The position numbers were made by a program, and so were the translations under genes. 32,954 nucleotides of DNA, from the NCBI GenBank assembly GCA_001887945.1, contig LDOQ01000045.1, positions 1 to 32,954 on the forward strand, written 5' to 3'. Below, in pieces: positions 8,928 to 26,001 of the stretch. Numbering within the stretch: position 1 is the first letter of the stretch; every line of letters begins with the position of its first letter. The notes beneath the pieces were generated by a model, which made no database searches, was not told where the DNA came from, and saw nothing but the letters and a program-made list of their open reading frames with translations. Source of the DNA: Spraguea lophii. Lineage: Eukaryota; Microsporidia; Spragueidae.

Positions 8928-10850
8928 TTATTTTCTTCCCCATCCACTTCTTTCTCTCTTAAATACATAAACACTTTCATCTACCTTCTCTTGTTTTCTT
9001 TCTACCACGTATCTATCTGTCTTCTCTTGTTTCCTTTCAACCACATATTTATCTACTTTTTCTTCTCTCCAAAAGTTTCTTTCTTTTACCACTGTAACAA
9101 CACTAGGTCTCTCTACTGGTATATTTCTACTATTATTTATTTTCTCTTCTAACATTCTTCCCATAGTTTCTATTTCTTCTTTATTATTATTATAATATTT
9201 TAATATTATTTTTATTTCATTATTATTTTTAATAATTCTATCTTTCCACATATTATTTCGTATATTAAAATATTTATCAGGTTTTTCATCAAAATGTAAT
9301 AATTTTGTGTAAAGAAGCAATAAATTGTTTTTATAAGAGAAATAATCTTTTTCTTCTTCTCTGTTATTTTTTTTGCTAGTATTATTCTTGATAGTATTAT
9401 TAATATTATTATTGATAGTATGTTTGTTATTGTTATTATTCTTAATATTAATATCTTTATTACTCCTACTTTTATCACTCTTAATACCACCATTATCATC
9501 TTTATCACTTTTATCTTTATTATAAAATTCTTCTATACTCTTATATATGATATTTTCAATTTTTATTTTATCATCTATTTTTTTAATTGTATTTTCTTTA
9601 TTATCATAAATATTATTGATAAGAGAAAATGAATATAATTCTATATTTTCTTTTATATTTATATTATTACCATTATTATAATATTCTATTATTTTATACC
9701 ATATATTATTTATATATATATCATCATAACATATTCTCATACCAATATATTCTACATCATATAATTCTTTACCATAAAAATATTTCTTATAAGATTTTAT
9801 ATCATTTTTTATCTTTATTATTTTTTTTATAATTTCTATTTTATTAGTATTATTATTAGTAGTATTAGGGTTAGGGTTAGTAGCGGTGTTATTGTTAGGG
9901 TTAGTGGTGGTTAGGTTGGTATTATTATTATTGTCATCTATATCACCTCTATCCGTATTACCCATACCATCTCTACCTACATCACTATTATTATTGTTAT
10001 AATTATATTTTAATTCTTCTACAGTATATGTTCTATATAAAGCATTTAATGCAGAATAATAATTATTAGAATTTATAAAATAATTATATAATATTTTAAA
10101 ATACATTCTAGAATGTTCTTCTGTAGGAATAGAATGTATTTTAATATAATTAATTATATTATCTATTATTTGATATGATAGATATTTATAATTAGTATTA
10201 GTATTATTAATATGGTTGTTAGTAGTGATATTGTTAATATGATTGTTAGTAGTGATATTGTTAGTACTGATATTATTGTTAATATTACCATCTATCGTAT
10301 TATTATTATTATTATTATTCATAGAACATAGATTATATGATAATTCTATAAAATATTTTATAATATTAGGATAATATTCTTTTGTATTAAGATCTAAATA
10401 TAAAATATTTATTATATTATATTTAGAATATATATCATAAATATAATTATTAAGAATATTAAGGTTATTAGATATAATATTTATAAATATATTAATATTA
10501 TTCTTAGTAATAGTACTGAGGTTAGTATAGGTTGTATTGTTATTAGGGTTAGTGTAGGTTAATGTGTTATCTATGTTGTTATTATCGTTAGTTAAGTTAT
10601 TATCGTTTATGTTGTTATTTGTATTATCGCTTATCTTACCATTACTTATCTTATCACTTATATCATTGCTTATCTTGTTACTTATTTTATCATTTATATT
10701 ATCATTACTCGTATCATCATTACTTATATCTAAGTATGATAATATTATTTCTTTATCATGCGTATTAAGTATATCAAATAAAGTATTTTTGTTTTCTTTA
10801 TGCTGTTCTATATTTTTTAAAAGAAGTAAGAAATCTTCTTTTGATATCAT
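8928..10850 (-). CDS. Large Asn-rich helical protein with Arg/Trp C-terminus, function unknown
   Basis: A 640-residue protein in which conserved-looking helical blocks are separated by Asn/Thr/Ile-rich inserts. Helical blocks include residues 1-42, ~115-180, ~223-280 ('YFKILYNYFINSNNYYSALN', resembling a helical hairpin repeat) and the region around 535-560. The inserts include an NPN-rich stretch (DNA 9855-9925) and a related one (10510-10562). The C-terminus holds a 14-residue tandem repeat built on 'DKYVVERKQEK', then ends 'RSGWGRK'. Helical blocks followed by a charged Arg/Trp tail recall eIF3a-like translation factors, but this is only a guess. The coding strand reads GGGGTTATCCAAATG at the start. 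It is divergent from the Tho1-like gene. Confidence 0.7.
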   Translation of the reverse strand: MISKEDFLLLLKNIEQHKENKNTLFDILNTHDKEIILSYLDISNDDTSNDNINDKISNKISNDISDKISNGKISDNTNNNINDNNLTNDNNNIDNTLTYTNPNNNTTYTNLSTITKNNINIFINIISNNLNILNNYIYDIYSKYNIINILYLDLNTKEYYPNIIKYFIELSYNLCSMNNNNNNNTIDGNINNNISTNNITTNNHINNITTNNHINNTNTNYKYLSYQIIDNIINYIKIHSIPTEEHSRMYFKILYNYFINSNNYYSALNALYRTYTVEELKYNYNNNNSDVGRDGMGNTDRGDIDDNNNNTNLTTTNPNNNTATNPNPNTTNNNTNKIEIIKKIIKIKNDIKSYKKYFYGKELYDVEYIGMRICYDDIYINNIWYKIIEYYNNGNNINIKENIELYSFSLINNIYDNKENTIKKIDDKIKIENIIYKSIEEFYNKDKSDKDDNGGIKSDKSRSNKDINIKNNNNNKHTINNNINNTIKNNTSKKNNREEEKDYFSYKNNLLLLYTKLLHFDEKPDKYFNIRNNMWKDRIIKNNNEIKIILKYYNNNKEEIETMGRMLEEKINNSRNIPVERPSVVTVVKERNFWREEKVDKYVVERKQEKTDRYVVERKQEKVDESVYVFKRERSGWGRK

Positions 10851-11779: not shown

Positions 11780-13468
11780 TCACATTCTAAGTAATGGTTT
11801 CATTCCAAGGATTTTCATTCCATTTCCCAATACAACTTTTATACTTTCAAAAACCAATAATCTTTGTTTAGCTATATTTTCTTCTTGATTTAATACTCTA
11901 AATTTAGAAAATAGGCTATTAGCCATAGCTGATAATGTCATAAGATATGTAACAACCTTACATGGCTCATAATCCTGTCTTGCATCTTCTAATACCAAAG
12001 GATATTTTAAAAGATAAAATAATACGGAAAGGAGTTCTTCTTCTAATTCTACTTTTGTTATTTCTTTTATTATTGTGTTTATATCATAAATACTATTGTT
12101 GTTTTTTATAGATTCTAATCTACAATGCGTGTATTGGAGATAAGGTCCTGTTTCTCCTTCAAACGATGTATTTCTTATCATGTCAAATTCATAGTTTTTT
12201 ACTCTTTTCGCACTAAAATCTTGTATAATAATCGATGATACGGCCAATTGTGTGGCTGTTTCTTCTACATTTTCTATTTTACTGAATTTTTCTTCGTTTT
12301 TTTTCATCATTTCTAATACAGCATTCTTAGCTTCTTTAATTATATCTTCTAGAAAAACTACGGTTCCTTTTCTAGATGACATTCCTTTTACCATTCCAAA
12401 ATTTACATGCACTAATTTATTCATATCTATTCCATACGTTGAAAGAGTTTGGAATAATTGTCTAAAATGTAAATCTTGTTGTGATGCTACGATATATATG
12501 GATTTTTCTGGATTATATTTTTCTGTTCTGTCAATTGCTGCTGCTATATCTCTTGTAGAATAAAGTGTAGAACCATCTTTTTTTATTACTAGAAATTTTC
12601 CAAGATTTCCAAGATCAAAATATTTAGAGCCGTCTTTATCTTCTACAAGATTTTCTGTATTCATAATAATACTTTTACCTTTTTCACCATAGAAACTTTC
12701 TCCTGAATAAATATCAAATGATATATTTAATTTCTTATACGTAATTTTATAATTCTCGATACTTTTATTTCTGAATGTTTCCCATTGTTTTAAATATTCT
12801 TCATTTCCATTCTCCATCTGTTTAAAATGTTCTCTTGCTTCATTCATCACCTCCTCATTTTCATTAGCATCTTTATTTATTTTTACATAAATATCATATA
12901 AATGTTTTATAGCATCTTCATTCAATAGTTTTTCATCTCCGTATTTTTTATACCCAACAGCCAATAATCCAAATTGTCTTCCCCAATCTCCTAAATAATT
13001 TATACTTATTGCATTATATCCAAAATTAGAATATAAATTTTTAACAAAGTTACCAAGTACTGTAGATCTTATATGACCAGCATGAAATATTTTAGCTATA
13101 TTAGGACTACTATATTCTATAATAATATTTTTTCCTTTACCTTCATCAGTTTGTCTGTATTTTTCTTTAGACGTTAAAATATCCTTTATGATAGACATAG
13201 CATATTTTTTCTTATTGAGTCTTATTTTAAAAATTGTACCAGCAACTTCTATATTATCGATTATGTCCAAATTTTTAGATATAATTTTTTCTGATATTTC
13301 TTTTGCTTTATCTTTACAGTTTTTATACATTTTAGCTAACTGAAGTGTTATATCAGCTGATTTGGGTTTTTTAGGAAGTTCTAACATTTTTAAAACATCT
13401 TCAATTTCACAGCCAATTATTGGTGATAGTTGTGTTGCCAATTCCATAAAAATTTTATTCATATCCAT
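11780..13468 (-). CDS. Arginyl-tRNA synthetase (class I), cytosolic type
   Basis: A 562-residue enzyme that charges tRNA-Arg. An N-terminal additional domain (about 1-110) is followed by the class I catalytic core. The HIGH-type motif is 'HAGH' at 129-132 within 'EYSSPNIAKIFHAGHIRST', the strong ArgRS signature. 'INYLGDWGRQFGLL' (156-169) follows. The KMSKS counterpart is the eukaryotic-type 'MSSRKG' at 363-368. The C-terminal helical DALR-type anticodon-binding region includes 'GPYLQYTHCRLESI'. Length fits fungal ArgRS without long extensions, and no mitochondrial presequence is seen. The coding strand reads CACCCTAATGG at the start, CCC two bases before ATG. Unlike several neighbours it has no Asn-rich inserts. 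Confidence 0.95.
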   Translation of the reverse strand: MDMNKIFMELATQLSPIIGCEIEDVLKMLELPKKPKSADITLQLAKMYKNCKDKAKEISEKIISKNLDIIDNIEVAGTIFKIRLNKKKYAMSIIKDILTSKEKYRQTDEGKGKNIIIEYSSPNIAKIFHAGHIRSTVLGNFVKNLYSNFGYNAISINYLGDWGRQFGLLAVGYKKYGDEKLLNEDAIKHLYDIYVKINKDANENEEVMNEAREHFKQMENGNEEYLKQWETFRNKSIENYKITYKKLNISFDIYSGESFYGEKGKSIIMNTENLVEDKDGSKYFDLGNLGKFLVIKKDGSTLYSTRDIAAAIDRTEKYNPEKSIYIVASQQDLHFRQLFQTLSTYGIDMNKLVHVNFGMVKGMSSRKGTVVFLEDIIKEAKNAVLEMMKKNEEKFSKIENVEETATQLAVSSIIIQDFSAKRVKNYEFDMIRNTSFEGETGPYLQYTHCRLESIKNNNSIYDINTIIKEITKVELEEELLSVLFYLLKYPLVLEDARQDYEPCKVVTYLMTLSAMANSLFSKFRVLNQEENIAKQRLLVFESIKVVLGNGMKILGMKPLLRM

Positions 13469-13550
13469 TAGGGTGAGAAATAAAAAAATATTTTTAAAAA
13501 AGTAAAAATAATTTCAATTGCATTTTGATTATTACGTTGAATTTTTTTAT

Positions 13551-13999
13551 AATGAAATTTTTATTTATATAAGTTTTATACAGTCAGTTACGCTATATCG
13601 CGGTCTAAGGTTTGGGGTTTCTGAAGCATATTTAAATTTGTATTAACTAGTTTTATTATGGATATATATTAATATAAACTTATACTATATTCTAGGTATT
13701 GGGCTTTTGTGTATGATACACATCTCTATCGCATCTTCCAATCTTTTAGATATTCTTAGTCCTTTCTTGGTGTAATACTAGTAAGTCACAAATCAATAAA
13801 ATAGTTGCAATTACACATGTTAAATAATATCCGATTTAAATAATAAGGGCGCCAGATAAGGCATAACCAAAGTTACACCATCCAGTCCCATCATTTGACA
13901 ACTTTTCTTTCTACCTTTATTTTTTTAAAAAAGTCTTCTATGTGGGGATTCGAACCCGCGGGCTTGAGATAGCACTCTCGATTATCCAGCTAAACAAAC
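13551..13999 (-). mobile_element. tRNA-derived SINE-like retroposon, copy A
   Basis: In minus-strand sense it begins with a tRNA-like head (13999 down to about 13940): a weak A box (TAGCTGGATAATC) and a perfect B box (GGTTCGAATCC) about 30 bp further on. A ~390-bp body follows that is collinear with copies B and C, with shared blocks such as GTATCATAC, GGTGTAAT-like and TGCAATTA words. The element ends in TATAAATAAAAATTTCATT followed by an A-rich tail. The head cannot fold as a proper tRNA because the acceptor arms do not pair and the T stem has mismatches. No clear target-site duplication is seen for this copy. A T6 run just after the head could terminate Pol III early. Confidence 0.6.
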
Positions 14000-14590
14000 T
14001 AAAAGAAAATAATAATTAAAAATTAATTTGATCTTTAAACAAATGTTGGAAGTTATAAAATCGGATTTAAAAAAAATTAAAAATTAACTTAATTTTGTAA
14101 AAATGTTAAAATCGTAGAAAAACAGTGAATGATCACAAAAAAATCCGATAAATAAAATATAACATGGGACCACTATTACTTTTAGTAGAATTAATCTTAT
14201 TTTGTTAATATAAAGTATAATATTATTCTTAAGGCATTATACTCTATATTAATAGAATAATATGAAAAAAATAAATGAACATTGAATTATACAGTAAATG
14301 GTACGAAAAACTGTTTATTAGATTATAAATAATATAAATAGCACTATTTTATAATATCATTTAAACAACACATAAGTATCATTGCATAGAATTGAATAAA
14401 ATACAAAAATTTAAATTCAATAATATTAAATATACATTAAAGAATATATAAATAAAAACAAAATCCAATAAAAAAATATAATAGATAGCTATTAGATGCA
14501 CACAATTAAGTGTTAATTTATATTTAATAGAATGTTAATTAACACTTAATTCATAATCTATTAAATATAAATTATGTTATAATTATTTTT
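14000..14590. other. Intergenic between SINE copies A and B, holds interleaved inverted repeats
   Basis: AT-rich spacer with no gene found. The one structured feature is the pair of interleaved inverted repeats at 14505-14574, listed separately. Confidence 0.5.
14505..14574. repeat. Two interleaved perfect inverted repeats (14 bp and 18 bp)
   Basis: Arm A ATTAAGTGTTAATT (14505-14518) pairs with AATTAACACTTAAT (14537-14550). Arm B TAATTTATATTTAATAGA (14514-14531) pairs with TCTATTAAATATAAATTA (14557-14574). The order is A, B, A', B', so the two stems cannot form as simple nested hairpins; they would be alternatives or a pseudoknot. Confidence 0.8.
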
Positions 14591-14604
14591 AATAAAATAC
14601 TATT
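14591..14604. repeat. Target-site duplication, left copy, of SINE copy B
   Basis: AATAAAATACTATT matches AATAAAGTACTATT at 15064-15077 at 13 of 14 positions. The two copies flank the element exactly: one directly beyond the A-rich tail and one directly before the tRNA-like head. Confidence 0.75.
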
Positions 14605-15063
14605 TTTTTTAATGGAATTTTTATTTATAGAAGTTTCCTGACCGGGTGCGGCCTACTATGGTCTATGACTTTTGATTCTTAAAGCACATTTAGACTTGTA
14701 CTGACCAGTTTCGTTATATACATACATTAATTTCATCTTACCTTATGCTCTGGGTGTTGGGATTTGCGTATGATACGCGTTTTTACCTCTCCCTAGGATT
14801 TTTGGAAATTCCCAACTTTTTCTTAGCATAATATTGGCGAGCCATAACTCAATATAGGGATTGCAATTAAACCGACTAAACACTACTTTAATCAGTAATG
14901 AGGCAGCCATCCAGAAACAGCTAATATGTGCTATCGAACCCTCACCCATTCAACAAGCTTTCGCTTCTGTTTATTATTTTTAAAAAATTTTTTTGGATGA
15001 GGGATTCGAACCCGCCAGACTTGGAATTTGGTTATTACCCTACGACCATTGGACCAAATGGGC
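14603..15063 (-). mobile_element. tRNA-derived SINE-like retroposon, copy B (best preserved)
   Basis: In minus-strand sense the element starts GCCCATTTGGTCCAATGG (15063 downward) with a good A box TGGTCCAATGG and a perfect B box GGTTCGAATCC (complement of 15003-15013), spaced as in tRNA genes. A body of ~390 bp follows, homologous to copies A and C, ending TATAAATAAAAATTCCATT with an A8 tail (14603-14610). A 13/14 bp target-site duplication flanks it. This combination of Pol III head, unrelated body, A tail and duplication is the hallmark of a SINE. Its body contains an open frame at 14743-14949 (-), not conserved in the other copies and not called as a gene. A second B-box-like GGGTTCGATAGC lies in the body at about 14930-14945. 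Confidence 0.72.
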
Positions 15064-15077
15064 AATAAAGTACTATT
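15064..15077. repeat. Target-site duplication, right copy, of SINE copy B
   Basis: AATAAAGTACTATT directly precedes the tRNA-like head in element orientation and matches the left copy at 13 of 14 bases. Confidence 0.75.
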
Positions 15078-15239
15078 AATGTTTAATGCACTCACAGTTT
15101 ATAATATCGTATATTTTTAAAAAATATGCGATGAAGATATTAAATGTTAAATAATGTATACTAAAACATTAAATATTAATTAATTTATCATTCATATCAG
15201 TTAATATATCAAATATACATATCCATTAGAATAATATTA

Positions 15240-15329
15240 TACATTAAAATTGGTATTAAAACAATATTCTACAATAGGATTGATATTAAAATAATATCAT
15301 ACAATAGAATTACTATTAAAATAAATTTA
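15240..15329. repeat. Tandem repeat, three 30-bp units
   Basis: Units begin at 15240, 15270 and 15300, each with the form TACA(T/A)TA-GATT-TATTAAAA-AAT. Units two and three are closest to each other. It lies in the spacer upstream of the homeobox gene. Confidence 0.8.
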
Positions 15330-15423
15330 TTATAAAATATTAACATATCCATTAAAGATATTCCACGATAGATATATTATTTCATTGAATACTAACGAAT
15401 TAGAATCATGATTAACGTGTTTT

Positions 15424-15515
15424 AATAAAAAATAATCTATTGTCTTTTTTATAAAAAATAAACCTTTGAAATAAAAAATAATCTATTGTCTTTTTTTACA
15501 AAAAATATACTTTCA
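15424..15515. repeat. Tandem duplication, two ~46-bp units
   Basis: Both units begin AATAAAAAATAATCTATTG followed by a T run; they start at 15424 and 15470 and differ at a few positions in their second halves. Confidence 0.8.
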
Positions 15516-15537
15516 AATAAAAAACATCCCCTTTAAA

Positions 15538-15611
15538 ATAAAAAAAATTTTTATATATTGCATCCAAAAAAAAAATAAAAAAAATTTTTATATATTGCAT
15601 CCAAAAAAAAA
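15538..15611. repeat. Perfect tandem duplication, two 37-bp units
   Basis: Units at 15538-15574 and 15575-15611 are identical, each an A8 run, TTTTTATATATTGCATCC, then an A10 run. The identity indicates a very recent duplication. Confidence 0.85.
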
Positions 15612-16145
15612 ATAAATATAAATGTTAATTAATTAAAATAATATTTAAAAGGTTATTTTTGTTTTTTTTTTCAAAGACAATGATAAAATAGAAGTATCAA
15701 ATATACGACAATTGATAGATGTCATGTAAATAAAAAAAGATTTGCAAAAAATAAAATCTTTCATTGAATGTTGAAATATGCATGTAAATCCAATTTTTAT
15801 TTAGTTACCTGATCTTTGCTTTCTTCTTTTGTAGTAAGCTGTTTAAGGAAAATTGAATTTAAAAATTTTATACCATTTTAATCTATCAAATATCAAAACA
15901 AATGAAAAAAAACTTAAAAATATTTAGAATATTGCGAAATGGAAATTTTTGGGAAATATCGCGTAGCTTTGATTTTTATTAATTAATTTTTTTAATTTAA
16001 AAAAGAATGGAAATTAAAAGAAAAATAAATACGGTAAAAGGCGTATATCGTTCTATAAGGGAATTTGCAATCTTTTCTTCAAAAAATCTTTTGATTTTAT
16101 TGATATGTTTAATTAACACATATCAGGAATCAATCTGGACATAAA
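15612..16145. other. Upstream region of homeobox gene, ~530 bp
   Basis: No gene found. The spacer presumably includes the homeobox promoter. No CCC motif precedes the start; the coding strand reads GGACATAAAATG. Confidence 0.4.
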
Positions 16146-16757
16146 ATGTTCAGATCTAGTCGGGGTATGAATCCTCAATTCAACAATTATTTTGATTCAT
16201 TTCATAGAAATCCACGTGGTGAGTTACAAAGTTCATATTATAATCCATTTATGGTCAAACCAAGAAAAAGAACTACAAAATCACAGTTAAAGGTTTTAGA
16301 AAAAACTTTTGAGACAATAATAAAACCGGATGCAGCACTCAGAAAAAAATTGGGACATGAATTGGGAATGACACCAAGAGAAGTTCAGGTTTGGTTTCAG
16401 AATAGAAGAGCCAAGGTTAAAAAACTGAATAAAAAAGTTCATGAAGATAAACGGGAAAATATTCAAAATCATACTGAGGAGAAAATGGAAGAAAATTTCT
16501 ATAATCAATATTATTTTCCAGAAACTCATATGTTCACTCCAATCACACCAAAAGAGTTTAACAACTACTGTAATGATAGATATCCAGCATCTCCCATAAA
16601 AGAAAATTCATATTTTTCTTATGAAAAAGATGAGAATTTAGAGTTGCCCAATGCAGAAAACCTTGATTCTTCTTGGATGGAATACGAACAGCCAAAATAT
16701 AAAAATGAACGAATATGCGAGAATCCATTTGATCCTAATAATTTCTTTACTGAATAA
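16146..16757 (+). CDS. Homeobox transcription factor
   Basis: A 203-residue protein with a single homeodomain at about residues 38-97. The region opens with basic 'KPRKRTTKSQLKVLEKTF', continues with helix 2 'LRKKLGHELGMTPREV', and has recognition helix 'VQVWFQNRRAKVKK' (80-93), with the invariant W83, F84, N86 and R88. The spacing fits a typical 60-residue domain with no three-residue insertion, so it is not of the TALE class. The remaining C-terminal 100 residues are acidic and Asn/Tyr/Pro-rich and could act as an activation region. Microsporidia are known to keep about a dozen homeobox genes; which one this is cannot be told here. It lies between SINE copies B and C. Nuclear DNA binding is inferred from the domain. 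Confidence 0.93.
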   Translation: MFRSSRGMNPQFNNYFDSFHRNPRGELQSSYYNPFMVKPRKRTTKSQLKVLEKTFETIIKPDAALRKKLGHELGMTPREVQVWFQNRRAKVKKLNKKVHEDKRENIQNHTEEKMEENFYNQYYFPETHMFTPITPKEFNNYCNDRYPASPIKENSYFSYEKDENLELPNAENLDSSWMEYEQPKYKNERICENPFDPNNFFTE

Positions 16758-17034
16758 TTTTATAATAAATTGTTTTCTATCCTTTAAAATTTTTAATTTA
16801 AATGAAAATATTTTTTTATGTAGAAAATTTTTTTTCTTATCAACAAAAATTACATAATTAAATTTTAATTAAATTAAATTTATTTATATTTTTAATACCC
16901 ATAATTAAAATATATTCATTTTTATTATTATTTTTTCTATTTTAATCATAGATAATAGAATTTATACGTTTTATTCTTTTTATATTTTCTATTTAAATTA
17001 TAGTTTATAACCTTAAAATCTTAATATTTAATTA
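16758..17034. other. Intergenic between homeobox gene and SINE copy C
   Basis: AT-rich, no gene found. It contains the probable 3' end of the homeobox transcript. Confidence 0.4.
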
Positions 17035-17542
17035 TTTTTTTTGATGAAACTTTAATTTATAAAAATTTCTTTAAATAACATTCTAATTTATACAGAAATT
17101 TTCTAGCCGATGGCGGTTTATCGTAATCTGTGTCCTTTGATTCCTAAAGCACATTTAAACTTGTATTAACTGGTTTTGCTGCAAATATGTATTAATTTCG
17201 TTTTATCTTATGTTCCAGAACGTTAAAGTTTTGCGTATGGTGTAATCATCATTTTATCATCCGTAATTCGATTTTAATATTTTTTCTTTGCATAATAATA
17301 TAAATTCACAAATCAATACAGAAATTATAATTATATCAGTTAAACATTATTCCAATATAGTAGTGATGTAGTGCATAAGACACAACTAATGCTATGTTAT
17401 CAAATCCTCACCTGCTAAACAACTTTTTTCCTCTTCCCTTCTATTTTTCATCTGTTTTTTTTAAAATTCTTTCAGGAGGGGGATTCGAACCCGCTAGCCT
17501 TTGAATTTAATTATCACGCTATGACCATTGGATTAAGCAGAC
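17035..17542 (-). mobile_element. tRNA-derived SINE-like retroposon, copy C
   Basis: In minus-strand sense the head begins near 17542 (GTCTGCTTAATCCAATGG, a decayed A box) and has a perfect B box GGTTCGAATCC. The body is homologous to copies A and B but ~50 bp longer, because the 3' segment is duplicated: TTTAATTTATAAAAATTTCT is followed by a second TCTAATTTATACAGAAATTT. It ends GTTTCATC plus an A8 tail (17035-17042). A weak flanking match (TCTT..TTTAATT at 17019-17033 and 17545-17558) may be an eroded target-site duplication. Divergence from A and B suggests an old insertion. Confidence 0.6.
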
Positions 17543-17734: not shown

Positions 17735-18650
17735 ATGACTTCATTTGATAAAAAGATAACAAAAGGAGATGAACAAATAAAAGAAGATCTACGACTTATA
17801 TATACATTCAACGTATTCTTATTTTTAGAAATAACCACATTTGGATTAGCTTTATTTTTTGCTTCATCATACAAAAATTCATTTATATATATAGCATTTG
17901 GATTATCTATAGTTATAGGAAATTATATTATCTGTGATGCTATTAACACACATAATACATTCCAATTAATTAACTATTTTTTCTTATATACGTTCTCGTT
18001 AATAAACACATGGCTGGACGGATTAACAGAACGTGGATTATATTTCTCGTTTAAAATAGCTTTCGGAGTTATATTTACACTTAGAGGGGTATATACTCTT
18101 TATAAAATTAATGATTTATATCGTATATATTCTTTTTCTTATTATAAGAAAATAGGAGGAGATAAAAAATTACAAGGTAAGTTTAATTTTAATTTTAGAT
18201 GCCAATAAAACCAGAAAAGATCTATTTATTATGTTTAAATTGTATATGGCTATAAATTGTATAAAAATATATTATCCTGCATATTCCAGATTAACGTATG
18301 GTATTGCTGTATTTTCAACGCTTACAACATTAAGATGTATTATATTTCTATTTTTTATGAGTATAAAAGATGTGGAATATAAACCTCTAGCATTTGGTTG
18401 TGGAATCTTAATATTTTTAGATATTATAGTTTGTTCTTTAAAGTTTATTGATTTAATATTAGTAAAAAACGAAGAAAAAAACAAGTAAGTTAAAATTAAT
18501 TTTAGAAATGAATATTTTCTGATAACATATTCTCTAGCAGTTACTGTATATATGTTTATTTTATATATTCAAAATTATAAAAAGTTCGGATCTGGGTTGG
18601 AAGCTGATTATATGGGTACTAGAGTGGAAGATACGGAAAGATTAAAATAA
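17735..18650 (+). CDS. Eight-helix membrane protein encoded by three exons with two mini-introns
   Basis: The gene is read as exons 17735-18176, 18199-18484 and 18506-18650, joined in frame to give 290 residues and a TAA at 18648-18650. Without splicing, reading stops soon after each exon. The protein has about eight hydrophobic helices: four in exon 1 (roughly residues 22-44, 50-66, 78-94 and 103-122), three in exon 2 and one in exon 3. It ends in a polar, charged tail (EADYMGTRVEDTERLK). The 4+4 layout, with a basic loop after each group, might reflect an internal duplication. I do not recognise the family. Both introns lie in hydrophilic loops. No signal peptide and no CCC motif at the start (TATTTCATG). 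SmD3, a spliceosome part, is encoded at 7528-7773. Confidence 0.75.
18177..18198 (+). other. Intron 1 (22 nt)
   Basis: Starts GTAAGT and ends TTAATTTTAG. It splits a Gly/Asp codon after its first base, and removal joins the upstream frame exactly to the downstream one. Retention would add ten residues and a stop. Branch-point-like TAAT lies immediately upstream of the 3' AG, as in microsporidian short introns. Confidence 0.8.
18485..18505 (+). other. Intron 2 (21 nt)
   Basis: Starts GTAAGT and ends TTAATTTTAG, the same terminal decamer as intron 1. Splicing joins AA|A and continues an open frame with a hydrophobic helix; retention puts TAA directly after the exon. Confidence 0.8.
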
Positions 18651-20441: not shown

Positions 20442-21755
20442 ATGGCTTGTACACATCCCCATGATACATCAACATCAGCATGTTTATCGTGTTCTGGATG
20501 TCTCATAACAGAAATAACATCTAAACATTTAATATTTTCTTCTAAGGCTAAAATACAAATATTTAATTATGTGAGTAAATCTGTTAATATAAATTATGAA
20601 GAATTTGAAGAATTTTTACATTCTACAGATTTTAGAACCAACAACACAACAGATGCGATAAATGATACTGACAATAATACAACAGAAGCGATAAAAGATA
20701 CTAACAATAATATAACAAATGAAATGACCAATAACAATAACACAACAAAGGCGATAAAAGATACTAACAGTAATATAACAACAGAAACTAATAACAATAA
20801 TATAAAAACAAAAAACAACAATAATACAACCAATAACACAACAGAAAACAACAATAATACAACAAAAAATATAACAGAGAAAATAAAAATAATAGATAAA
20901 AGAGATTTAAATAATCTTATAAAAAACAATATAGATTCTTCAATATTCAATCTCACCCACTTAGAATTAACGTATAAAAATTTAAAACCTCATAACAACA
21001 TAGTAACAGAATGTATATACCTTAAAAAAATATTACATAAAAAAATAAATAAAAAATATAATATAATAGATATAGATCTACCACAGAGTATAGGATATAA
21101 TATTATAAATAATAGTACAGGTATAGTAATCAATCATAATAAAGAACATATAGAAGAAATAACAGTAGAAGAATTTATTGAAATAACCAATATTAAAGAT
21201 TTATTAATAAAATATTTCAATATAAAAGAAAATAAAGAGAGTATAATAAAATGTAATAATATAAATTATAGTAAATATATTATATCTAAAAAGCATATCA
21301 ATAGTGATAAGGATATAGGTGAGATAGATAGTATAAGTGATAACTGTGATATAAAAGATAATATTACTAATACTACCTATCCTAACCCTAACACCAATAT
21401 CACCACTAACAACAATATCACTAACAACAATAACCCTATCACCAATAACAATATCACCATTAACAACAATATCACTAACAATACAACTAATAATAACATA
21501 ATTAATAAGCATATAAATTCTATTAATAATAAAATAATTATAAATAATAAAATATACATTAGAACCAATAAAATAAATGATATAATAAATAATAAAGATA
21601 ATATATATTTAATAGAATTAATATGTAATTATTGTAATAAAAATAATAACTATGAAAATATAAATATTATAACAGAAGATAATAATATTATAATAAAAGA
21701 TTATAAAAATAAATATAAAATAAAAAAGAAAGAGAGTATAGCAGTACAATGGTAG
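20442..21755 (+). CDS. Asn-rich protein with N-terminal Cys/His cluster, function unknown
   Basis: A 437-residue protein, if started at the CCCC-linked ATG. The N-terminus 'MACTHPHDTSTSACLSCSGC' holds a C-x-H-x9-C-x2-C-x2-C cluster that could bind zinc, then a conserved-looking block to about residue 65. Asn/Thr-rich tracts dominate residues ~67-150 and ~315-375, with repeats such as 'EAIKDTN' and one TTYPNPNT module (21372-21395). Between them, residues ~155-310 are less repetitive ('FNLTHLELTYKNLK', 'ITVEEFIEI'). The C-H-P...C-x-x-C opening slightly recalls Fcp1 phosphatase N-termini, but no DxDxT motif follows, so that identity is rejected. It is divergent from SGT1 with only ~60 bp between starts, so they share a promoter. 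Confidence 0.7.
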   Translation: MACTHPHDTSTSACLSCSGCLITEITSKHLIFSSKAKIQIFNYVSKSVNINYEEFEEFLHSTDFRTNNTTDAINDTDNNTTEAIKDTNNNITNEMTNNNNTTKAIKDTNSNITTETNNNNIKTKNNNNTTNNTTENNNNTTKNITEKIKIIDKRDLNNLIKNNIDSSIFNLTHLELTYKNLKPHNNIVTECIYLKKILHKKINKKYNIIDIDLPQSIGYNIINNSTGIVINHNKEHIEEITVEEFIEITNIKDLLIKYFNIKENKESIIKCNNINYSKYIISKKHINSDKDIGEIDSISDNCDIKDNITNTTYPNPNTNITTNNNITNNNNPITNNNITINNNITNNTTNNNIINKHINSINNKIIINNKIYIRTNKINDIINNKDNIYLIELICNYCNKNNNYENINIITEDNNIIIKDYKNKYKIKKKESIAVQW

Positions 21756-22065: not shown

Positions 22066-23901
22066 TTATATTATAATAGAATTAATATACATAGATAATT
22101 CTTTTACTGATGTTACATTATTTATAATATTTTCTATATTTCTTATTATTTTACATTTATAATATTTATTTGTTAATTTATTAAATATATATTTATACCA
22201 TAGTATATTTGTTTTAGGATAATAATTATACCACATATCATTTGTTATATCTCTCATTTCTCTATAAATATCATATTGTATATCATTCTCACCTAAGAAT
22301 ATATTTATATCATTACATAGATTATTATATATTATATTATTATTTATCTTTATTCTGGTAAGACTAAAATCTATTATACTTATTTTATAATTTATGATAT
22401 TATTAGTTATAGTATTAGTGATAGGGTTAGTGTTGGTGGTTGTGTTAGGGTTATTGGTGATAGTATGATTGATAATGGTACGTGTATTAGGGTTAGGGTA
22501 GGTAGTATTTTTATTATTTTTATTATTGTTTTTATAACCTATCTCTTTATTACCATTACCACTTTTATTACCATTACCACTTTTATTACCACCATCCTCA
22601 TCATCCATATCATCACATACATCATTATTATATCTTTTAATAAGTATATTTCCCAAATGTAAATCTCTATGCTCCATCTGATATTCCTTTTCCAATATTG
22701 TTATTTTATTTATTAATATTTTTAAAAATACTAATACTTCTTTTTTATTTTTGAATTTATAATTTTCTACTGCTATTCCACCATCTTCCATTTTTATAAC
22801 ACCATAATATTTATTTTCTATAGGTATAGCATTATAAGATATATTATTATCTTTATACAACATAAAAGCATCTATAAGATATTTACCTTTACAATAGAAG
22901 TAATCATATAATCTAACTGTTATATTATTATTTATACTATTATTTCTATTATTGTTAGTGGTATTAGTATGGTTATTAGTGTTACTGTTATTGGTATTAT
23001 TGGTATTAGGGTTAGGATAGGTAGTATTGTTATTAGATTTATTATTATCATTACTCTTATATCTTTTATTACTCTTATTATCATCACCCATATCACCTAT
23101 ACTACTCTTATTACTACTCACACCACTCATACTACTCATAATATTATCACACTTAGTATTATCAATAATTTTATGAATATATAATTCTTTATAAAATATA
23201 TCATTTATCTCCATAACCTTATAAATATATTTATCTTTAGAATAAATATCAGAATAAGAAGCCTCATTAATCTTTTTTATACCAAATAATTCTTTATTTC
23301 TTATATTTAATATATTCTTAATATCTTCTATCTTCATACTCTTATTTATATTTATCTTTATACTATTATTAGTTGTGATATTAGAAGTATGGTTATTAGT
23401 AGTATGTATTTGAGTGTTAGAGTTAGTATTATTACTAGGGTTAGGGTAGGTAGTAGTATTATTTATATTAGTGTTAGTATTAGTATTAGTAATAATGTTA
23501 TTATTAATATGATTATCTTTATTATTCTTTACAGCCTTAGTATTACTATTCTTTATAACCTTATTATTATTAAATTTATTTTCTATTAATAAATCTATAC
23601 TACTATTATCCATTATTGAAGTATTTATATTATTTTCTAATGAATTTATTTTATTTTTTATATTCTTAGTAATGTTAGTAGTAGTGATATTGGTAATGGT
23701 ATTAATGTTAGTTGTATTAGTAGTAATGTTAATATTATTACTATTAATATTAGTGGTATTCTTATTATCACCTAACTCACTATCTAACTTCATATCACCA
23801 TTACCATTATCATCATCTTTATAAGCATTAATTAAATCTTTATATTTATTTTTTATTTTATTTATTATTTTTCTTCCAGTGATATAAGAATCATCTATCA
23901 T
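22066..23901 (-). CDS. Haspin-type protein kinase with Asn-rich inserts
   Basis: A 611-residue kinase. The catalytic loop 'EHRDLHLGNILIK' (410-422) and 'SIIDFSLTR' (508-516), replacing DFG with DFS, match haspin, which has E-H-R-D-L-H-x-G-N and I-I-D-(Y/F)-(T/S)-L-S/T-R. 'QYDIYREMRDITNDMWYNYY' then 'PKTNILWYKYIFNKL' (562-576) matches the haspin C-lobe (Q-F-D-I-Y-R-x-M...Y-x-P-x-S-N-V-L-W). K228 in 'YIYKVMEI' is the likely ATP-binding Lys; the Gly-rich loop is weak ('INEASYSDIY'). Haspin phosphorylates histone H3 Thr3 at mitosis. Inserts rich in Asn/Thr break the kinase between conserved blocks (about 250-325 and 424-502), each containing a TTYPNPNT-type motif, with a third in the N-terminal region. 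The start is ACCCCTATG. Confidence 0.85.
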   Translation of the reverse strand: MIDDSYITGRKIINKIKNKYKDLINAYKDDDNGNGDMKLDSELGDNKNTTNINSNNINITTNTTNINTITNITTTNITKNIKNKINSLENNINTSIMDNSSIDLLIENKFNNNKVIKNSNTKAVKNNKDNHINNNIITNTNTNTNINNTTTYPNPSNNTNSNTQIHTTNNHTSNITTNNSIKININKSMKIEDIKNILNIRNKELFGIKKINEASYSDIYSKDKYIYKVMEINDIFYKELYIHKIIDNTKCDNIMSSMSGVSSNKSSIGDMGDDNKSNKRYKSNDNNKSNNNTTYPNPNTNNTNNSNTNNHTNTTNNNRNNSINNNITVRLYDYFYCKGKYLIDAFMLYKDNNISYNAIPIENKYYGVIKMEDGGIAVENYKFKNKKEVLVFLKILINKITILEKEYQMEHRDLHLGNILIKRYNNDVCDDMDDEDGGNKSGNGNKSGNGNKEIGYKNNNKNNKNTTYPNPNTRTIINHTITNNPNTTTNTNPITNTITNNIINYKISIIDFSLTRIKINNNIIYNNLCNDINIFLGENDIQYDIYREMRDITNDMWYNYYPKTNILWYKYIFNKLTNKYYKCKIIRNIENIINNVTSVKELSMYINSIII

Positions 23902-24153: not shown

Positions 24154-26001
24154 TTAAGAATATTCTATACCCATTAAATCTAACATCCTTCTTCCATTAA
24201 TAATCTCATTTGTTATCATTATTATTTCTATATTATATTTATTCTTTAATTCCATTATACCATTATATTCTTCATACGTACATTTATTTATATATAATAT
24301 TATTCTACTTATTTCTTTATAATATAATATTCTTTCTTCTCTGTTATCTATATTTATATTATAATGATTAGTATTGTTATTATGATTGTTATACCTATTA
24401 CCATCTAACTTGTCATACCTATCACCCAATCTATCACTATCACCATATCTACTATCACCCAATCTATCACTATATTTATTACCATAATCATAAATATTGA
24501 TTCTTAGATTATTATTTCTTAATTGCTGTATTATCTCTTCTACATACTCTACCACCATAATTTCTTTATTTTGTTTTATATAATATTTTAACGATGATAA
24601 TATATCTCTTTCTTTGTAGAGTGTATAATCTATATTGATATTTCTATCTTCTTTTATTTCTTCTATTTCTTTTGTATGTTTATTCGTAAGTATATATCTT
24701 ATTATATCTTCTTTTCTTCCTTTTTTTATCATATGTATATTATCTGTATTGTTATACGATGTATATTCTATCTCATTTATTATATCAAGTATAATATTTA
24801 TTAATATCATATGTGTATCTATTCTTTGTTTTTGTAATTTTAATATGTTTTTTTCTTTAAATGTTAAATTGTTCGTCATTTCTAATTTTCTCTTGTATTC
24901 AATTAATTCTTTTTCTATCGCTTCCGCTACTTCAAATATTTCTTTATTCGCATAATTTAACCAGAATTCATCTTCTGGATTTATTGTTATTATTTTTTCT
25001 TTATTATTATTCTTATATGAATTATGTGAATTTGTATTGTTGTGTAGGTTGATGTTTGATTTAGTATGTGGGTTAGTAGTATCAATTTCTGAGTTAGTAT
25101 ATGCATTTATATCAGGTTTATTATGTTCTTTTATTATTACTGTGTTGTTATTAAGATTTAATAGATCTTTTAATAATATATTATATGATAGTGTGTGTTT
25201 TAATGGTGTTATTATATCTTCTGAACGATCAAAATATAATAATAATGGTTTGGTGTGTGTGTCTGGTATTGTGGAATTATTTATTTTTTTATCTAATATT
25301 TTTATTTGTTGTGTTAGATGAAATAGTGATTCAGTATTATTTGTTTTAATATTATTATGTGTATTGGTATTAGTTTTATTGTTGTTTGTTTTATTTGTAT
25401 TGTTAGTATTTCTATAACCATTGTCGTTATAACCATTATTATTACTATAACTTTCATCGTTACTCTCATCATCACCTTCATAACCACTATCATTATCATC
25501 ACACTCATTATCTTTATAAAGTATGTATGGTTTCTCTCCTAAAGAATAAAACACTGAATACAATCCATTTCTCTCATCTTCTATTACTGCCATATATGTT
25601 TCTACTGGTATATAATCCATATGCTGATCATACACTGCCACAATATCTGTTGTCCTGCCTATAGATTTTATTTTATTACACAACTCTTCCAAGAGTATGC
25701 GTGGTATAGAATTTATAAAATTTAAATAATATCTATTATATAAATTACTTTCTATATTATCTATTAGTAGTTCTATATTCTCTTCTGTTGCAGATATAAA
25801 ATAAAATGCGTCGATATCAGGTATTCTCGTTCTATTGTTTTTTATAGATACTATAGTTGTCACAAAATAATCGTGCAGATCAGATAGTGTGTATAATGTG
25901 TTTAATAGAGGTAGTGTGGTGTTGTCTATAACTAGAATCTTCCAGTATTTGCTTAATGAGAGCATAGTGGATATTCGTGTGCGCGATAACTTTCTTAGCA
26001 T
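24154..26001 (-). CDS. SLY1: Sec1/Munc18 (SM) family protein, Sly1-like
   Basis: A 615-residue SM protein. It opens with 'WKILVIDNTTLPLLNTLYTL' (about 20-39), the SM domain 1 start. It continues with 'DAFYFISATEENIELLIDNI' (64-83) and 'YYLNFINSIPRILLEEL', the Sly1-like Y-Y-L-N-F-x-S-x-x-R pattern. 'LLLYFDRSEDIITPLKHTLS' opens the second domain, as D-R-x-x-D-x-x-x-P-L-x-H-x-x-x-Y is conserved in SM proteins. Sly1 binds N-terminal peptides of Sed5/Ufe1-type syntaxins and promotes ER-Golgi fusion; a Ufe1-like SNARE lies at 5013-5714. Length is near yeast Sly1 (666). Asn-rich inserts lie at about 175-225, and in the C-terminal part is a tandem 'DRLGDSRYGDSDRLGDRY'. The start TATCCATG has CC before ATG. 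Confidence 0.85.
   Translation of the reverse strand: MLRKLSRTRISTMLSLSKYWKILVIDNTTLPLLNTLYTLSDLHDYFVTTIVSIKNNRTRIPDIDAFYFISATEENIELLIDNIESNLYNRYYLNFINSIPRILLEELCNKIKSIGRTTDIVAVYDQHMDYIPVETYMAVIEDERNGLYSVFYSLGEKPYILYKDNECDDNDSGYEGDDESNDESYSNNNGYNDNGYRNTNNTNKTNNNKTNTNTHNNIKTNNTESLFHLTQQIKILDKKINNSTIPDTHTKPLLLYFDRSEDIITPLKHTLSYNILLKDLLNLNNNTVIIKEHNKPDINAYTNSEIDTTNPHTKSNINLHNNTNSHNSYKNNNKEKIITINPEDEFWLNYANKEIFEVAEAIEKELIEYKRKLEMTNNLTFKEKNILKLQKQRIDTHMILINIILDIINEIEYTSYNNTDNIHMIKKGRKEDIIRYILTNKHTKEIEEIKEDRNINIDYTLYKERDILSSLKYYIKQNKEIMVVEYVEEIIQQLRNNNLRINIYDYGNKYSDRLGDSRYGDSDRLGDRYDKLDGNRYNNHNNNTNHYNINIDNREERILYYKEISRIILYINKCTYEEYNGIMELKNKYNIEIIMITNEIINGRRMLDLMGIEYS

Follow-up and report, generated by a model that had tools for sequence, protein, structure and literature searches.

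The window analyzed here, positions 1 to 32,954 of contig LDOQ01000045.1 (32,954 nt), comes from Spraguea lophii, a fish parasite and strongly reduced microsporidian. Its ArgRS shows 100% identity to that of S. lophii strain 42_110. The window carries three collinear elements, E1, E2, and E3, of ~460–480 bp each, all on the minus strand and with their heads at the high-coordinate end, in agreement with an earlier note on this DNA that described three same-strand elements of about 450–500 bp. The elements and their parts are as follows.

13542..13999, minus strand: SINE copy E1, old, 62% identity to the family consensus
13999 and ~13542–13548, minus strand: ends of E1, the 5' head and the A-rich tail, respectively
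13945..13959, minus strand: B box stretch of E1 (GCGGGTTCGAATCCC)
14591..14604, minus strand: 3' target-site duplication of E2, AATAGTATTTTATT, where the A tail ends
14605..15063, minus strand: SINE copy E2, old, 76% identity to the consensus
15001..15015, minus strand: B box stretch of E2 (GCGGGTTCGAATCCC)
15064..15077, minus strand: 5' target-site duplication of E2, AATAGTACTTTATT, 13/14 match with the 3' copy
17035..17065, minus strand: possible second SINE tail, strongly 5'-truncated, adjoining E3 (TTTTTATAAATTAAAGTTTCATC plus an A run), as direct reading suggests
17066..17542, minus strand: SINE copy E3, old, 67% identity to the consensus
17480..17494, minus strand: B box stretch of E3 (GCGGGTTCGAATCCC)

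The B box GGTTCGAATCC is exact in all three copies, as the earlier note had it, and lies within the common 15-nt stretch listed above. Pairwise identities of 61–65% likewise confirm its estimate that the copies differ at roughly one-third of sites. The 3' end TATAAATAAAAATT(T/C)CAT that it assigned to all three is present in E1 and E2 but not in E3, which ends in TATAAATTAGAATGTTAT. A target-site duplication (TSD) is retained at 13 of 14 nt in E2, and none was recognized for E1 and E3. Both E2 and E3 resemble the family consensus more than they resemble one another or E1, and E1 is equally close to the consensus and to E2 (62.0 and 62.2% identity). From these identities, we regard E1–E3 as separate insertions and not as a local tandem array. 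Changes in the three copies are mostly G>A and C>T, i.e. a drift towards A+T. E1–E3 are old, decayed members of a dispersed family, derived from earlier rounds of insertion.

This family is not limited to three members, as had been proposed, but has hundreds of copies genome-wide. Specifically, pattern searches of the whole genome recovered 344 matches to the 3' tail (7 for the reversed-pattern control), 297 to the body (0 in the control), and 144 to the head (0 in the control), figures which suggest that the 5' end is missing from many copies. One element used as a query against its own genome gave at least 43 matches with 40 of 355 first-look candidates scored, and GGTTCGAATCC occurs 173 times (tRNA genes counted in) vs 0 for the reversed pattern. 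Full reading covered a sample of the copies, brought together through similarity to E2, through matches to the 3' pattern, and from the surroundings of tRNA genes. Of 35 extracted copies, 33 were aligned (the composite L021 and one short fragment were left out), and nearly all 33 have A runs at the 3' end. The consensus, built from these 33 minus E1–E3, L007_2926, and L028, is 484 nt long plus an A tail. Among 39 full-length copies, sampled largely through similarity to E2, 31 show 92–99% identity to the consensus, and these many near-consensus copies are the product of a recent burst. The data support a dispersed, tRNA-headed SINE family with hundreds of copies in the S. lophii genome.

In the consensus, an A box (TGGCCCAGTGG) at positions 9–19 precedes the B box at 53–63, which is the tRNA spacing the earlier note had described and a predicted Pol III type 2 promoter. 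That the heads are true tRNA genes, an alternative it had raised, is ruled out by ARAGORN, which found 0 tRNA genes in the window, and by an Rfam cmscan of the window, with nothing at E ≤ 1. For the E1 and E2 heads alone, cmscan at E ≤ 10 listed no tRNA-model match; from the tRNA/tmRNA clan it listed a single hit, to a tmRNA T-loop over 13 nt of E1. As cmscan lists the best of overlapping clan members, a tmRNA match could mask a weaker tRNA match in E1 and in one further head search, which likewise listed no tRNA-model match. The SINE head neither folds nor scores as a tRNA. When compared with 22 distinct tRNAs, it reached a best local score of 21 with tRNA-Arg(UCG), a value attained by 0 of 300 shuffles; with the T arm removed, 38 of 300 shuffles equaled the best score. 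For the 5' part of E2, the best match was tRNA-Glu, equaled by 3 of 300 shuffles. A tRNA search of the genome, in which 63 of 485 candidates were scored, gave at least 57 places above the cut-off. Directly after the head, the young consensus contains an internal TTTT, a possible early Pol III stop; this is its single T4 run, and no depletion relative to shuffles that would indicate Pol III stop avoidance was detected.

Flanking duplications of 11–17 nt (≥10 nt counted) are present in 28 of the 55 copies with both flanks, vs a mean of 0.4% and a maximum of 2 copies in a mismatched-flank control (200 shuffles). These 55 copies, which include E1 and E2 and not E3, were kept if the match reached consensus position 470 and lay at least 60 nt from the locus end. 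The other 27, including several old copies, have no TSD of ≥10 nt, and several rows in the TSD table, as in the box-retention table used below, are old fragments or chance alignments. Outside the TSDs, flanks are otherwise unrelated between copies. TSDs are also found on 5'-truncated copies (L040, L045, L047 [consensus 456–484], L052, and L091), and four of the TSD-bearing copies are reduced to the last 29–160 nt; on such severely truncated copies, they are a signature of target-primed reverse transcription. Loci with just the last ~37–66 nt of the SINE, among them L041, L047, L051, and L052, were considered as possible LINE 3' ends; two of these, L047 and L052, are in fact SINEs with extreme truncation and a TSD. 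No strong target-site preference was found at TSD-bearing insertion sites, with upstream sequence only mildly T-rich, and low A at position −1 is an artefact of the TSD extension procedure.

SINEs depend on a LINE reverse transcriptase, which the earlier note did not expect in strongly reduced parasites. This expectation does not hold for S. lophii, since Campbell et al. 2013 (PMC3749934) reported four non-LTR retrotransposon transcripts in germinated spores of S. lophii, and a LINE was therefore already known in this species. An RVT_1 search of the genome gave 9 matches as first candidates for the partner. Judged from their translations, L031, L032, and L033 (presumably Ty3/gypsy-type, with L036 similar but decayed), L035/L038 (presumably telomerase), and the decayed L037 were rejected, while L034 and L039 are what we take to be LINE-like. 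The putative EN/RT frame of the LINE, P0001, is open over 479 aa and interrupted by a contig end. Its matches to RVT_1 (E 0.0018) and to Exo_endo_phos_2 (E 0.0019) fall below curated cut-offs, and among PDB sequences it matches LINE-1 ORF2 chains, along with one other RNA-directed DNA polymerase, at ~1e-9. Several of its 13 database relatives contain PF03372/PF14529 and PF00078; a whole-genome search for the PF14529 endonuclease gave no match at E ≤ 0.01. A C-terminal zinc-finger region is found at several loci and, at L065, RT similarity, finger region, and the block shared with the SINE lie within one stretch.

This block, 49 bp at 86% identity (E 8e-11), links the SINE tail to the LINE 3'UTR, where it lies ~40 nt past the stop codon; in a genome-wide search, the similarity is 84% over 55 nt (E 1e-9), and the shared-block alignment comprises 13 of 18 blocks. 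Both elements terminate in an A run. Since SINE tail and 3'UTR have this block in common, the resident L1-like LINE, read from partial copies, is the likely partner, i.e. a LINE with a related 3' end of the kind the earlier note had suggested seeking. The two termini differ in layout, with 28 nt between block and A tail in the SINE and ~125 nt in the LINE (L057). The final 28 nt of the SINE show weak similarity to the LINE terminus (7 to 211 of 500 shuffles equal, depending on the copy, in nine LINE copies of which one, L062, was wrongly anchored), and an identical terminus was rejected as the likeness is not significant. Two hairpins common to SINE and LINE show no significant covariation (fold z −1.8 and −1.1).

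From end to end, the element consists of a tRNA-like head carrying the A and B boxes, the body, and a 3' tail that holds the 49-nt block in common with the LINE. Pol III transcription would start from the head, and the LINE protein, as the shared sequence suggests, may recognize the LINE-like tail, the poly(A) end, or both, and nick a chromosomal site. Reverse transcription primed at the nick would then yield 3'-complete, often 5'-truncated copies with 11–17 nt duplications, and such products are observed here.

Dispersal, TSDs, truncation, the boxes of the head, and the LINE-related tail together sustain the SINE reading, and we are highly confident that S. lophii has a tRNA-headed SINE family spread by LINE-type retroposition, with the window trio among its old copies. 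A partner other than the L1-like LINE, with the 49-bp block an old relic or capture, is unlikely but retains some weight: the final 28 nt of the SINE cannot be clearly matched to this LINE, whose recovered copies are decayed, truncated, or interrupted where a contig ends, and the four transcripts reported by Campbell et al. (PMC3749934) indicate that more than one LINE may exist. Such a partner would be expected to end in GATAAATAAAAGTTTCATTCGT(A)n. Against it stand the significance of the block, its place in the 3'UTR, and the A run closing both elements, as well as some old SINE copies that are, by eye, nearer the LINE in parts of the block than the young consensus is, although this signal is mixed. 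Local duplication of a stretch that contained a tRNA, whether tandem or segmental, would account for three copies on one strand within 4 kb. It is ruled out by copies dispersed in their hundreds and by TSDs amid otherwise unrelated flanks, and has a negligible probability also given that pairwise identities of E1–E3 do not exceed identity to the consensus and that the longest direct repeats common to the three sites fall inside the elements (best 20 of 38 families).

DNA transposons and MITEs do occur in microsporidia according to the text of PMC7313128, and a MITE or Helitron-like derivative with a captured tRNA piece could be imagined; yet the consensus ends, by reading, are not inverted repeats, and the A tail, the varying length of the TSDs, and the copies truncated at the 5' end but complete at the 3' end contradict it, making this origin extremely improbable. 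A different proposal concerns the trio alone, whose B boxes could have been co-opted around the homeodomain gene and kept by selection as TFIIIC-binding sites (with a boundary or chromosome-organizing role) or short Pol III genes. Over consensus positions 51–65, E1–E3 keep 14, 15, and 14 of 15 nt, their overall identities being 68, 79, and 74%, compared with 11–12 of 15 in seven other old copies (L085, L047, L103, L078, L044, the plus-strand L007 copy, and L088; the table counts E1 twice, as L001 and W), and a T6 run directly follows the head in E1 and E2. However, the trio was noticed through its B boxes, which is an ascertainment bias, the less decayed L028 and L050 likewise keep 14 and 15 of 15, the trio's A boxes have decayed (4, 7, and 9 of 11 positions retained in E1, E3, and E2, respectively), and drift towards A+T would itself be expected to produce T runs. 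Co-option of the trio appears improbable.

Microsporidia are a model for extreme genome reduction. Young, abundant SINEs and a resident LINE mean that a two-tier retroposon system can persist and expand in a parasite genome of ~5–6 Mb, and S. lophii would, to our knowledge, have one of the smallest nuclear genomes with such a SINE/LINE system. The family also helps explain breakpoints of the S. lophii assembly, its insertions offer markers for population studies, and its many copies of different age provide a measure of mutation bias in an A+T-rich genome.

The S. lophii family resembles tRNA-derived SINEs with LINE-like 3' tails, the SINE/LINE partnership reviewed in PMC3747384. Such SINEs likewise have A and B boxes in a tRNA-like head, followed by an unrelated body and a 3' segment related to a LINE; they end in an A tail, are flanked by TSDs of differing length, and include 5'-truncated copies as well as copies of different age. 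It departs from usual members of this class in its host, a microsporidian with a 5.3-Mb assembly, in a head too degenerate to name its tRNA, and in a shared block whose distance to the A tail is 28 nt in the SINE and ~125 nt in the LINE (L057). Among fungi, Aspergillus fumigatus belongs to a different lineage from S. lophii and has a much larger genome. From their description (PMC5063351), its AfuSINE2 elements are also tRNA-related fungal SINEs with short TSDs.

Descriptions of microsporidian transposable elements, in the literature examined, are concerned with LINEs, LTR elements, DNA transposons, and MITEs. The term "SINE" occurs 0 times in the main text of PMC3749934 and PMC3486916, and the repeat table of Nosema bombycis (PMC3614468) gives a "SINE" class of 28,669 bp (0.18%) as a class total only, i.e. 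microsporidian SINE content likewise, with no family, structure, TSD, or partner given in that table. Apart from this 0.18%, no described SINE family was found for any microsporidian in these sources, and the S. lophii family is, as far as we have found, the first to be characterized in this group. The non-LTR retrotransposons present in Trachipleistophora hominis (PMC3486916) and in S. lophii (PMC3749934) are, as described in those texts, autonomous, unlike the SINE, and probably represent the lineage of its autonomous partner.

The SINE family represented in the window is genuine, abundant, and recently active, and the three window copies (E1, E2, and E3) are old members, i.e. decayed relative to the family consensus. 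An earlier note had described three tRNA-headed, SINE-like repeats here, and these are present: all lie on the minus strand, their heads are at 13999, 15063, and 17542, and any two of them share 61–65% identity. The assembly comprises 5,273,041 bases in 73 contigs, of which the window is one entire contig. Within it, E1 and E2 sit between an arginyl-tRNA synthetase (ArgRS) ORF and a homeodomain-type ORF, and E3 between the latter and an ORF at 17735.

SINE copies and neighboring features in the window
11780–13468, minus strand: ArgRS ORF, whose protein (11783–13468) matches the ArgRS of Spraguea lophii 42_110 at 100% identity along its whole length
13542–13999, minus strand: E1, with the B box stretch GCGGGTTCGAATCCC at 13945–13959
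14605–15063, minus strand: E2, with the same stretch at 15001–15015 and a target-site duplication (TSD) pair, AATAGTACTTTATT / AATAGTATTTTATT (13/14 match), in the expected flanking places
16146–16757: homeodomain-type ORF, its class read from the translation
17066–17542, minus strand: E3, with the same stretch at 17480–17494

No TSD was found in the flanks of E1 and E3. After S. lophii 42_110, the next matches to the ArgRS are microsporidian, at no more than 54% (best 120 of 7865). The genome is therefore that of S. lophii or of an extremely near relative. The spacer before the homeodomain ORF carries a perfect 37-nt tandem duplication (15535–15608) and a 46-nt one at 83% (15424–15515). Several window proteins contain long asparagine/threonine-rich stretches (8928–10850, 20442–21755, 22066–23901, and 24154–26001), including, by eye, one kinase-like and one Sec1-like protein.

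Searching the genome with E2 returned at least 43 matches (355 first-look candidates, 40 scored). A 3' tail pattern (19 nt, up to 2 mismatches) matches 344 times genome-wide, compared with 7 for the reversed pattern, while body and head patterns (each 22 nt, up to 3 mismatches) match 297 and 144 times, respectively, against 0 for their controls. We estimate that some 340 copies of roughly 350–480 nt make up 2–3% of the assembly. At least 14 of the 73 contigs (C3, C15, C17, C19, C22, C25, C35, C36, C46, C47, C48, C52, C54, and C56) have a SINE pattern match no farther than about 405 nt from their start; the assembly thus seems to break at SINEs, and our counts are probably too low.

The copies bear marks of retroposition: TSDs of at least 10 nt (range 11–17 nt) flank 28 of the 55 copies with both flanks, lying at the 5' edge of the head and after the A tail. 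When the 5' flank of each copy was paired with the 3' flank of another, such duplications averaged 0.4%, with a maximum of 2 copies (200 shuffles). Shortened copies also carry TSDs.

Shortened copies with TSDs (consensus span)
L040: 89–484
L091: 325–484
L045: 348–484
L052: 427–484
L047: 456–484

Among 39 full-length copies, 31 show 92–99% identity to the consensus and 8 show 70–89%; in a separate global alignment, 23 of 45 rows reach 94–100%. The window copies stand at 62% (E1), 76% (E2), and 67% (E3) in one alignment and at 68, 79, and 74% in a second with freer gapping. G>A and C>T changes prevail in these old copies (92/171, 59/111, and 83/157, respectively), an excess that is a drift towards A+T-rich composition. 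Elsewhere, one copy begins in or right after the T run downstream of a tRNA-Ala gene (L088, about 1573–1600; C45 just after 103515). Copies L030 (C52, with a TSD) and L043 (C1 near 213340, with none) have an identical 30-nt 5' flank and differing 3' flanks, which may reflect a misjoin or ectopic recombination of the copies.

Thirty-three copies were aligned together with their flanks. The family consensus spans 484 nt plus an A tail and consists of a tRNA-like head, an A-rich linker, a body, and a tail ending in GATAAATAAAAGTTTCATTCGT(A)n. Its G+C content is 46.5%, compared with about 22% in the window. The head is tRNA-like as judged by its boxes and their spacing (A box TGGCCCAGTGG from consensus 9 onward, B box GGTTCGAATCC from 53 onward). 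No match to the Rfam tRNA model was listed for the head or the window, and two Rfam scans of the head listed a 13-nt T-loop match to tmRNA, which belongs to the tRNA clan. Against 22 distinct tRNAs, the head scores highest with tRNA-Arg(UCG) (score 21; reached by 0 of 300 shuffles), and once the T arm is removed, significance is lost (38 of 300 shuffles score as high). E2 is an exception, its 5' part resembling tRNA-Glu(UUC) (3 of 300 shuffles as high). A single T4 run is present in the consensus, at position 79; the first T run of 30 tRNA genes is at least T5 in 27 and T4 in 3.

The B box stretch is identical in E1, E2, and E3, while their A boxes and bodies have decayed. Over consensus 51–65, the trio retains 14, 15, and 14 of 15 positions, and seven other old copies retain 11–12. 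This unusual retention is a mere lead, because B boxes drew attention to the trio.

A PF00078 profile search of the genome gave 9 matches. We rejected L031 (C73:40003–40479), L032 (C48:16630–17118), L033 (C44:27834–28307), and L036 as LINEs, as their translations look like Ty3/gypsy-type elements, with long open frames in L031 and L033. L035/L038 (C2:66528–67271) was also set aside; by eye it looks like a telomerase-type reverse transcriptase (RT), in a 1239-aa open frame with long asparagine-rich insertions. L037, a decayed match, was placed in no class.

LINE candidates
C72:3–1439, minus strand: L039, an open frame of 479 aa, cut by the contig end, with parts that read as endonuclease-like and RT-like
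C48: L034, a decayed relative of L039

LINE-1 ORF2 chains match the L039 product (about 1e-9), as do, weakly and under cut-offs, Pfam RVT_1 and Exo_endo_phos_2; the latter profile has no match at E ≤ 0.01 in the whole genome. Among the 13 relatives of the L039 product in the database are a protein from the fungus Smittium culicis that is LINE-1-like and another whose annotation gives a nematode as its source. The LINE C-terminal finger region has 13 matching pieces genome-wide, on C21, C63 (both ends), C11 (two places), C61, C67, C27, C34, C5, and C1. LINE pieces cluster at contig ends (C63 both ends, C11:267–913, C21:1349–1991, C61:810–1392, and C72:3–1439), a pattern that would fit a subtelomeric location or a collapse of the assembly caused by them.

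An L1-like LINE is quite probably the SINE's partner, as suggested by a block common to both. In the LINE 3' end L057, 49 nt located about 40 nt past the stop codon match SINE 408–456 at 86% (E 8e-11), and a genome-wide search finds 55 nt at 84% (E 1e-9). Of the 9 LINE segments aligned, 8 show the block in collinear position; in L068 it has decayed, and L071 has lost most of it by deletion. L065 combines RT similarity (to the region following the FADD motif and beyond), finger, and block in a single stretch, which contains one in-frame stop. The final 28 nt of SINE and LINE share a similar layout (TAAATAAA followed by TTTC and an A tail), a likeness that is not significant. Both elements can fold the block into two hairpins, for which covariation support is absent. 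The L057 3' end and A tail directly abut a piece of another LINE.

Campbell et al. (PMC3749934) reported transcripts of non-LTR retrotransposons, four in number, from S. lophii. The word "SINE" does not occur in the main text of that paper, nor in those of PMC7313128, PMC4202319, PMC13174016, and PMC3486916. Among the open-access articles listed, titles and abstract openings name no microsporidian SINE. For S. lophii, the available part of Parisot et al. 2014 (PMC4202319) gives one LINE, three LTR, two Mariner/Tc1, and six Merlin families. In a Nosema bombycis comparison, the portion available has a table row reading "SINE 28,669 bp, 0.18%", with no family named (PMC3614468). The element is a SINE of a known kind, and its microsporidian host lineage is, as far as could be found, new.
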